From the NCBI RefSeq assembly GCF_001514065.1, contig NZ_KQ948429.1:124001-188000 (forward strand): a DNA stretch of 64,000 nt. The letters run 5' to 3'. A program made the position numbers and the translations under genes. The notes under the pieces were generated by a model. That model ran no database searches and was not told the origin of the DNA. It was given only the letters and a program-made list of their open reading frames with translations. This DNA is from Streptomyces antibioticus. GTDB taxonomy: Bacteria; Actinomycetota; Actinomycetes; Streptomycetales; Streptomycetaceae. Positions 9,185 to 11,115 of the stretch are shown one piece after another. Position 1 is the first letter of the stretch. Each line of letters opens with the position of its first letter.

Positions 9185-9294
9185 CTCGCGGTTCGGACGA
9201 CTATCTCAACTGTCCTGGTCGTCGGTTACAGTCTTGAACAACGCGCATGACCATCGCATGTCCTGGATGGTCAGACGTTCACAACTTCATACCG

Positions 9295-9447
9295 CTCATC
9301 CAGAGGGGCAGAGGGATACGGCCCGATGAAGCCCCGGCAACCCTCCAGCCGGTCTCGTAGTGATCAGAACCGATCGCACCGCGAGGCTCCCGGCTAGGGA
9401 AGGTGCCAAATCCGTCTCACGGCGAGATGCGTCGTGAGGAAGATGAG
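9295..9447 (+). promoter_or_regulatory. SAM-I (S-box) riboswitch
   Basis: The conserved S-box core is easily read: AGAGGGGCAGAGGGA, then GGCCCGATGAAGCC, CGGCAACC, a variable P3 arm, and AAGGTGCCAAATCC before the closing arm. P1 is formed by CTCATC at 9295-9300 and GATGAG at 9442-9447. It sits directly in front of metM (ATG 9468). The 3' strand of P1 runs into a purine-rich GAGGAGAAAGGG stretch, and no U-rich terminator follows. Control of ribosome access is therefore more likely than attenuation (inference). S-box RNAs bind S-adenosylmethionine and normally shut off methionine synthesis genes. Confidence 0.93.
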
Positions 9448-9467
9448 GAGAAAGGGCCTCGCCTCTC

Positions 9468-10754
9468 ATGGCTGCGCAGACTGTTGCAAGCACCACCGAA
9501 ACCACGGTCGACCTTGGCCCCGCCGCCGCGCTGAGCTGCCGCGAATGCGGCCACCGCGTGCCCCTCGGTCCGGTCTTCGCGTGCGAGGAGTGTTTCGGCC
9601 CGCTCGAGATCGCCTACGACTTCTCCGCCTACGACGCCGAGGAGCTCCGCAAGCAGATCGAGGCGGGACCCGCGAACATCTGGCGTTACGCACCGCTGCT
9701 GCCCGTCCCCGCGGACGTGGCCGACAAGCCCAACATCAACCCCGGCTGGACCAAGCTCGTCCAGGCCGACAACCTGGCCCGCGAGCTGGGTGTCGAGGCC
9801 GGCAAGCTCTTCATGAAGGACGACTCCGGCAACCCGACGCACTCCTTCAAGGACCGGGTCGTCGCCCAGGCCATCGAGGCCGCCCGGGTCTTCGGCTTCA
9901 CCACGCTCTCCTGCTCCTCCACCGGCAACCTCGCGGGTGCCGTCGGCGCCGCCGCCGCCCGCGCCGGCTTCCGTTCCTGCGTGTTCATCCCGCACGACCT
10001 GGAGCAGGGCAAGGTCGTCATGGCCGCTGTATACGGCGGTGAACTCGTCGGCATCGAGGGCAATTACGACGACGTGAACCGCTTCTGCTCCGAGCTGATC
10101 GGCGACCCGGCCGGCGAGGGCTGGGGCTTCGTCAACGTCAACCTGCGGCCGTACTACGCGGAGGGGTCCAAGACCCTGGCGTACGAGATCTGCGAGCAGC
10201 TCGGCTGGCAGCTCCCCGACCAGCTCGTGGTGCCCATCGCCTCCGGCTCCCAGCTGACGAAGATCGACAAGGGACTCCAGGAGCTGATCAAGCTCGGGCT
10301 CGTCGAGGACAAGCCGTACAAGATCTTCGGTGCCCAGGCGGAGGGGTGCTCGCCGGTGTCCGTCGCCTACAAGGCGGGCCATGACGTCGTCCGTCCCCAG
10401 AAGCCGAACACCATCGCCAAGTCCCTTGCCATCGGCAACCCGGCCGACGGCCCCTACGTCCTCGACATTGCGCGCCGCACGGGCGGTGCGGTGGAGGACG
10501 TGAACGACGAGCAGATCGTCGACGCGATCAAGCTGCTGGCCCGCACGGAGGGCATCTTCGCGGAGACGGCCGGTGGCGTGACGGTCGGTGTGACCCGCAA
10601 GCTGATCGAGAACGGCGTACTGGACCCGACCCTCACCACCGTCGTGCTGAACACCGGCGACGGCCTCAAGACCCTCGACGCGGTGGCCGGCACCGGCCTC
10701 ACCGCCACCATCCGCCCCAACCTGGACTCCTTCCGAGAGGCTGGCCTCGCATGA
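9468..10754 (+). CDS. metM: Threonine-synthase-family PLP enzyme, probably O-phosphohomoserine-dependent homocysteine synthase (MetM)
   Basis: A 428-residue fold-type II PLP enzyme of the ThrC family. The N-terminal zinc-ribbon-like part has C24-x2-C27 and C39-x2-C42. The PLP lysine is K128 in PTHSFKDR, and the phosphate loop is SSTGNLAGAV. By homology alone it would be called threonine synthase. Context argues otherwise: a SAM-I riboswitch sits upstream and a sulfur carrier gene overlaps its stop by 4 bp. From memory, Streptomyces MetM with the thiocarboxylated carrier MetO converts O-phosphohomoserine to homocysteine, and this locus fits that description. Other threonine synthases should exist elsewhere in the genome. 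Confidence 0.85.
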   Translation: MAAQTVASTTETTVDLGPAAALSCRECGHRVPLGPVFACEECFGPLEIAYDFSAYDAEELRKQIEAGPANIWRYAPLLPVPADVADKPNINPGWTKLVQADNLARELGVEAGKLFMKDDSGNPTHSFKDRVVAQAIEAARVFGFTTLSCSSTGNLAGAVGAAAARAGFRSCVFIPHDLEQGKVVMAAVYGGELVGIEGNYDDVNRFCSELIGDPAGEGWGFVNVNLRPYYAEGSKTLAYEICEQLGWQLPDQLVVPIASGSQLTKIDKGLQELIKLGLVEDKPYKIFGAQAEGCSPVSVAYKAGHDVVRPQKPNTIAKSLAIGNPADGPYVLDIARRTGGAVEDVNDEQIVDAIKLLARTEGIFAETAGGVTVGVTRKLIENGVLDPTLTTVVLNTGDGLKTLDAVAGTGLTATIRPNLDSFREAGLA

Positions 10755-11026
10755 GCGTGACCGTCCGCATCCCCACCATCCTGCGCACCTACACCGGCGG
10801 GCAGGCCGAGGTCGCGGCCGAGGGGGCCACCCTCGCCGACGTCATCGCCGACCTGGAGAAGAACCACACGGGCATCGCCGCCCGCGTCCTCGACGACCAG
10901 GGCAAGCTGCGCCGCTTCGTCAACGTGTACGTCAACGACGACGACGTCCGCTTCGAGCAGGGCCTGGAGACCGCCACCCCGGACGGCGCGGGCGTCTCGA
11001 TCATCCCGGCCGTCGCCGGCGGCTGA
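10751..11026 (+). CDS. metO: MoaD/ThiS-type sulfur carrier protein (MetO)
   Basis: A 91-residue ubiquitin-fold protein that starts MSVTVRIPTILRTYTGG and ends in the diagnostic diglycine (IPAVAGG), the site of C-terminal adenylation and thiocarboxylation. Its ATG overlaps the metM stop (ATGA), so the two proteins are translationally coupled. The likely role is to deliver sulfide as a protein thiocarboxylate to MetM for homocysteine formation. Molybdopterin or thiamine synthesis is less likely given the riboswitch and partner. The activating E1-like enzyme (MoeB/ThiF type) is not in the window. Confidence 0.9.
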   Translation: MSVTVRIPTILRTYTGGQAEVAAEGATLADVIADLEKNHTGIAARVLDDQGKLRRFVNVYVNDDDVRFEQGLETATPDGAGVSIIPAVAGG

Positions 11027-11078: not shown

Positions 11079-11115
11079 AATTGCCCCCTCCGCATGAGAA
11101 GCGGAGGGGGCAATT
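11079..11115. terminator. Perfect 15-bp stem-loop terminator after metO
   Basis: AATTGCCCCCTCCGC at 11079-11093 pairs perfectly with 11101-11115 around a 7-base loop. It lies 53 bp beyond the metO stop. There is no long U tract, as is common for Streptomyces terminators. The symmetry would let it act in both directions. Confidence 0.85.

Follow-up and report, generated by a model that had tools for sequence, protein, structure and literature searches.

A SAM riboswitch upstream of a predicted metM-metO homocysteine synthase operon in Streptomyces, and methionine-type RNA leaders on metM across Actinomycetota

Results

Organization of the locus

The window (the whole stretch of 64,000 nucleotides that we analysed) comes from a Streptomyces genome of 10.1 Mb in 29 contigs. 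It contains an S-box aptamer followed by two open reading frames that we name metM and metO (Table 1). The preliminary description had reported an S-box, a ThrC-like enzyme and a GG-ended carrier protein joined to it by an ATGA overlap, and each of these was recovered with RF00162, TIGR00260 and PF00291, PF02597 and the sequence itself, in which ATGA at 10751-10754 can be read directly as the end of metM and the start of metO. The aptamer and the metM start codon are 18 nt apart. Upstream of the operon is a diverging glycosyltransferase-2 gene, and on its 3' side, on the same strand, are a cold-shock gene (Pfam CSD) and then a GroEL-like open reading frame that was recognised by eye. The inverted repeat that follows metO was not called by a terminator scan that requires a T run.

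Table 1. Features of the metM-metO locus (positions in the window)
Feature	Position	Strand	Details
Conserved promoter-like block GGTTACAGTCTTGAACAACGC (putative assignment)	9224-9244	+	about 50 nt before the aptamer
SAM-I (S-box) riboswitch aptamer	9293-9449	+	RF00162, 76.9 bits, full model 1-108
Putative Shine-Dalgarno, AGAAAGG	9449-9455	+	directly 3' of P1
metM, ThrC-family PLP enzyme, predicted O-phosphohomoserine-dependent homocysteine synthase	9468-10754	+	428 aa
metO, ThiS/CysO-like sulfur carrier protein	10751-11026	+	91 aa, C-terminal GG (...AVAGG)
Perfect 15-nt inverted repeat, possible end-of-operon terminator hairpin	11079-11115	+	

The riboswitch leader

The aptamer, with an E value of 2.6e-16 and a score to be compared with a gathering score of 44.4, was the only Rfam match at gathering score within the window. 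No second S-box at E <= 0.001 was found elsewhere in the genome among the 150 of 606 first-look candidates that were scored. The arms of its P1 helix lie at 9295-9300 and 9442-9447. The segment from P1 to the start codon, GAGAAAGGGCCUCGCC, can fold as a hairpin covering the putative Shine-Dalgarno sequence and is strongly conserved across 79 Streptomyces leaders (from an analysis of 80 named relatives that left out L130 and L133, where the match does not start from residue 1).

When these 79 leaders were folded, the mean accessibility of the Shine-Dalgarno sequence was 0.59 with P1 forced and 0.88 with the 5' arm of P1 blocked. Forcing P1 lowered accessibility in 75 leaders, and the effect was absent or reversed in the other 4; overall, occlusion by P1 was modest. 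The unconstrained fold of the window's leader already has P1 formed. These results fit weakly with translational repression by SAM. Like other SAM-I aptamers, this one gives a full-length Rfam match, and what distinguishes it is the short distance to the start codon, which makes a translational rather than a terminator mechanism likely. Control through transcription termination was considered and is not supported, as the gap is 18 nt and the scan gave no terminator-like site there.

Within the promoter-like block, TACAGT at 9227-9232 is a possible -10 element, and the core TACAGTCTTGA was present in all 20 printed rows (every fourth) of the 79 leaders; a sigma-70 consensus scan gave no site. 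The conserved stretch in Streptomyces runs from TACAGTCTTGAACAACGC to TGACCATCGCATG (window 9224-9273) and may comprise a promoter plus an extra leader element. We also considered the inverted repeat TGACCATC/GATGGTCA (9248-9273) as an operator and rejected it, as the repeat occurs in 1 of the 79 leaders (that of the window, by the printed rows).

MetM resembles threonine synthase and differs at conserved positions

MetM matched PF00291 at 217 bits and the NCBIfam thrC model TIGR00260 at 267 bits, above the cut-off of 167.1. Because the ThrC of the same genome also exceeds this cut-off (323.9 bits), the model does not separate the two proteins, and the earlier warning that automatic annotation as threonine synthase would mislead was justified. 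Compared with proteins of the same genome, MetM shares 36% identity with ThrC over 345 aa and 28% with CysM over 113 aa, and its five closest solved relatives are threonine synthases. Of the 80 named relatives among the matches listed, which are 86-97% identical to MetM, 79 carry a Streptomyces title and the remaining one is titled Actinobacteria bacterium.

We examined residue conservation across 131 MetM rows, having left out 4 of 135 rows of 380 aa or less. Many positions conserved in 93% or more of the rows agree with the genome's own ThrC, including the SFKDR motif, whose lysine (position 128) we take to be the PLP lysine. MetM has Tyr230 in place of Arg161 of ThrC and Ser234 in place of Gln165, both conserved at 1.00 (rounded) across the 131 rows, whereas all four PDB threonine synthases that we aligned have Arg and Gln at these sites. 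The ThrC segment NPxRxEGQKT, whose Arg presumably binds the substrate phosphate, reads RPYYAEGSKT in the window's MetM. Further changes from the genome's own ThrC are Ala258-Ser259 for Gly188-Asn189 and Thr367 for Pro289, and MetM has an N-terminal segment, missing from that ThrC, in which cysteines 24, 27, 39 and 42 are conserved. Judged from these replacements, the active site may have been re-tuned so that the thiocarboxylate of MetO reacts instead of water.

MetO and the means of charging it

MetO matched PF02597 (E 3.6e-17), and its best solved relatives are 3dwg (E 7.3e-31), which we take to be Mycobacterium tuberculosis CysO, and 4n6e, a ThiS/MoaD family protein. It shares 60% identity with the genome's own CysO, a carrier that ends in GGMA where MetO ends in GG. 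The cysO gene is beside cysM on contig C2, and a Prok-JAB gene lies some 1.4 kb upstream. This separate cysO-cysM pair rules out MetO as the only CysO-like carrier of the genome. A carrier of the CysO/CysM type would be expected next to cysM; the neighbour of metO is metM. A MoeZ homologue with ThiF and rhodanese domains is encoded on contig C3, so parts able to charge MetO exist in the genome.

Other threonine and homocysteine genes of the genome

The preliminary description had proposed looking for a second thrC near hom and thrB, and had made its reading depend on the genome having another threonine synthase. Among 17 PALP matches in the genome, we found on C3 a 352-aa canonical ThrC encoded between homoserine dehydrogenase (hom) and homoserine kinase (thrB). 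This hom-thrC-thrB cluster rules out MetM as the sole threonine synthase.

The genes metB, metX and metY had likewise been named as ones to look for, and candidates for each are present. The MetX match scored 454.5 bits against a curated cut-off of 500; at most nine candidates were scored per genome in this search, and neither the window's genome nor any control genome reached the cut-off. There are two MetY-like enzymes (the one tested exceeded its NCBIfam cut-off) and a cystathionine-gamma-synthase-like enzyme above the cut-off of model PRK07811. With these genes present, deleting metM by itself may not make this strain auxotrophic, and homocysteine could be reached by two or more routes, of which the riboswitch would control only one. 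The two metY-like genes (G000:C1:969667-973838, L069) are in opposite orientation and 68% identical, with metX beside one of them.

Distribution in Streptomyces

A MetM match at E <= 1e-80 was present in all 199 sampled Streptomyces genomes, which makes sequence kinship to the assayed MetM of S. albulus likely, and an S-box over the cut-off was present in 197. None was found in the other two, G001 (79% complete) and G073 (1140 contigs), a second, looser search included. Among the Streptomyces S-box loci, the 30 with the highest scores all have a MetM match immediately downstream, which argues against a chance arrangement. MetX matched at E <= 1e-60 in 54 of the 199 genomes, the window's among them.

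A further S-box match was obtained in three Streptomyces genomes; one of these matches falls short of the cut-off. The two strong ones (L195:8429-9190 in G098 and L196:1548-2270 in G103) are followed at about 0.2 kb by a gene for an IclR-family regulator, as if SAM also controlled a transcription factor there.

Distribution in Actinomycetota

Among 396 Actinomycetota genomes, 199 had an S-box at E <= 0.001 (192 over the cut-off) and 139 had MetM. We examined the upstream stretches of 135 of these 139 genes, leaving out G215, G255, G323 and G523, where the match covers part of MetM. An S-box was located upstream of metM and on its strand at 100 of the 135 loci. In an Rfam scan of 113 loci, 78 had an S-box (14/20, 14/20, 11/20, 13/20, 15/20 and 11/13), always upstream on the metM strand, with a median gap of 47 nt and a largest gap of 265 nt. 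The total also includes ten loci with S-box coordinates beside metM from the genome-wide searches and twelve Streptomyces loci, 11 of which have such coordinates and all 12 the S-box motif upstream. The upstream stretch was short at L240 (4 nt), L335 (5 nt) and L278 (149 nt), and the S-box match of L256 is cut by a contig end.

A MetO-like open reading frame follows metM at 105 of the 135 loci, at most 160 nt from the end of metM in 103 of the 105; 4 of the 30 loci lacking one have less than 300 nt after metM. S-box and MetO occur together at 86 loci, MetO alone at 19, S-box alone at 14 and neither at 16. The complete MetO-like proteins end exactly in GG in 74 of 104 cases, and most of the other 30 have a few extra residues after GG. 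In L289, L296 and L315 there is an in-frame stop within the metM match. When presence of the S-box is mapped onto a FastTree phylogeny of 131 MetMs, 9 changes are needed, against 29.5 with shuffled labels. The pairing of metM with methionine-sensing RNAs is found in many families of the phylum.

Downstream of the 30 best-scoring S-box loci of the phylum, a MetM match was present in 19 and absent from 11. At the loci where the S-box does not precede metM, the downstream genes include metK-like genes and one metX-metY pair; except at L201, the metK-like label is presumptive and comes from a sequence motif. Genes at nine loci were called with a program that misses some genes.

T-box-like leaders on metM

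At L257, where metM has no S-box, a T-box leader lies upstream; it scores 102.9 bits, above the gathering score of 93. Its alignment reads GAA and then C AUG, and by the usual T-box layout we take this AUG to be the methionine specifier. The T-box of a threonine synthase gene is expected to carry an ACN specifier. AUG in place of ACN independently supports methionine, not threonine, as the product sensed. A pattern search found the T-box core at 3 of the 35 loci that lack an S-box (L257, L261 and L290), each with GAACATG...GAGC upstream of the core; the leaders of L261 and L290 fall below the Rfam threshold and, as pattern matches, are weaker evidence. Because the three are near one another in the MetM tree, they represent one lineage and not independent events.

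Discussion

The evidence makes it highly probable that the locus is a metM-metO operon that would form homocysteine from O-phosphohomoserine and MetO-COSH, and whose S-box would lower translation when SAM is bound. In the pathway that we propose, a MoeZ-type activating enzyme would charge MetO as a C-terminal thiocarboxylate (MetO-COSH). MetM would take O-phosphohomoserine from the threonine branch and form a PLP intermediate with it; this would then accept sulfur from MetO-COSH, in place of the water used by threonine synthase, to give homocysteine. Binding of SAM would favour formation of P1, making the adjoining Shine-Dalgarno sequence less accessible, so that translation of metM and metO would fall, as sequence and folding suggest. 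For the window's locus, enzyme activity, SAM binding and the partition of flux are predictions of this kind.

In S. albulus, MetO-COSH is reportedly the sulfur donor for MetM. The MetM/MetO system and its riboswitch are already published for that species: PMC12172450 cites Hasebe et al. 2024 (AEM 90:e01247-24) for the finding that MetM of Streptomyces synthesizes homocysteine, names metO, and describes metM with an upstream SAM riboswitch. The locus reproduces all three elements (a ThrC-like homocysteine synthase, a metO carrier gene and the riboswitch); no difference is shown, and the window's strain also has metX and metY. On the basis of genus-wide conservation and gene order, it is very probably orthologous to the S. 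albulus operon. The identification made in the preliminary description is supported by this published system, by the separate thrC and by the methionine-type RNA control of metM found widely in the phylum.

Could MetM instead be an ordinary second threonine synthase that a SAM riboswitch happens to precede, perhaps as a means of keeping threonine in balance with methionine? Its score above the TIGR00260 cut-off, the conserved SFKDR motif and the threonine synthases among its closest solved relatives (all five) would agree with this, as would a cyanobacterial homologue, which releases some threonine according to PMC12172450. Canonical ThrC shares with MetM its sequence family, that motif and the expected substrate, O-phosphohomoserine. 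ThrC, however, adds water, whereas MetM has the four-cysteine N-terminal segment, a partner carrier encoded by an overlapping gene, and S-box or Met-type T-box-like regulation. The conserved Arg and Gln of ThrC are replaced by Tyr and Ser in the MetM family, and a canonical thrC already stands between hom and thrB. We therefore regard a second threonine synthase as very unlikely.

It is likewise very unlikely that MetM and MetO make a different sulfur compound, such as cysteine from O-phosphoserine in the manner of CysM and CysO. MetO does resemble the genome's CysO (60% identity) and CysM does use O-phosphoserine with CysO-COSH (PMC3227635), yet a separate cysO-cysM pair is present in the genome, the match of MetM to ThrC exceeds that to CysM in both identity and aligned length, metM is under methionine-type RNA control, and the S. 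albulus activity is published, as cited in PMC12172450. The CysM/CysO/Mec+ system of Mycobacterium tuberculosis is comparable: there MoeZ generates a ThiS-like thiocarboxylate, from which a PLP enzyme receives its sulfur (PMC3227635), and MetO lies in the sequence neighbourhood of CysO. It differs in using O-phosphoserine, not O-phosphohomoserine, and the protease Mec+; the window's genome has separate cysO, cysM and Prok-JAB genes.

The metM-metO locus is itself a known system, and the interest lies in the wider regulatory pattern on metM. We think it likely that MetM/MetO is an old actinobacterial homocysteine route, not peculiar to Streptomyces, that is gated by RNA at the threonine branch. 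The RNA, located on metM, would usually be a SAM riboswitch, with a methionyl-tRNA T-box taking its place in at least one lineage, and the route is possibly the sole dedicated one in about three quarters of the sampled Streptomyces. This last proportion comes from the search for MetX alone; in the remaining Streptomyces, the window's strain included, MetM/MetO coexists with metX. Among the papers listed in our searches of the open literature, we recognised none on S-box or T-box control of metM across Actinobacteria, and we found no mention of MetM in passages of PMC12452182 and PMC13257386.

Because a current model library names MetM threonine synthase, methionine routes in actinobacteria have probably been miscounted. 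S-box and T-box-like leaders allow MetM and ThrC to be told apart from sequence, and they indicate in which genomes homocysteine may have no dedicated source other than the MetM route, a matter that bears on methyl-donor supply in antibiotic producers. Some caution is needed in naming all homologues MetM, as a Microcystis homologue 51.6% identical to its Streptomyces counterpart behaves differently (PMC12172450).

Two groups of loci depart from the usual arrangement. At 14 of the 135 (L252, L259, L227, L310 and ten others), metM has an S-box and no MetO-like gene was found downstream; in L332 and L337, which have the same pattern, the locus ends soon after or inside metM. At 16 of the 135 (L253, L261, L262, L265, L270 and eleven others), neither an S-box nor a MetO-like gene is nearby, and these homologues may differ in function; two of them, L261 and L290, have the Met-type T-box-like leader.
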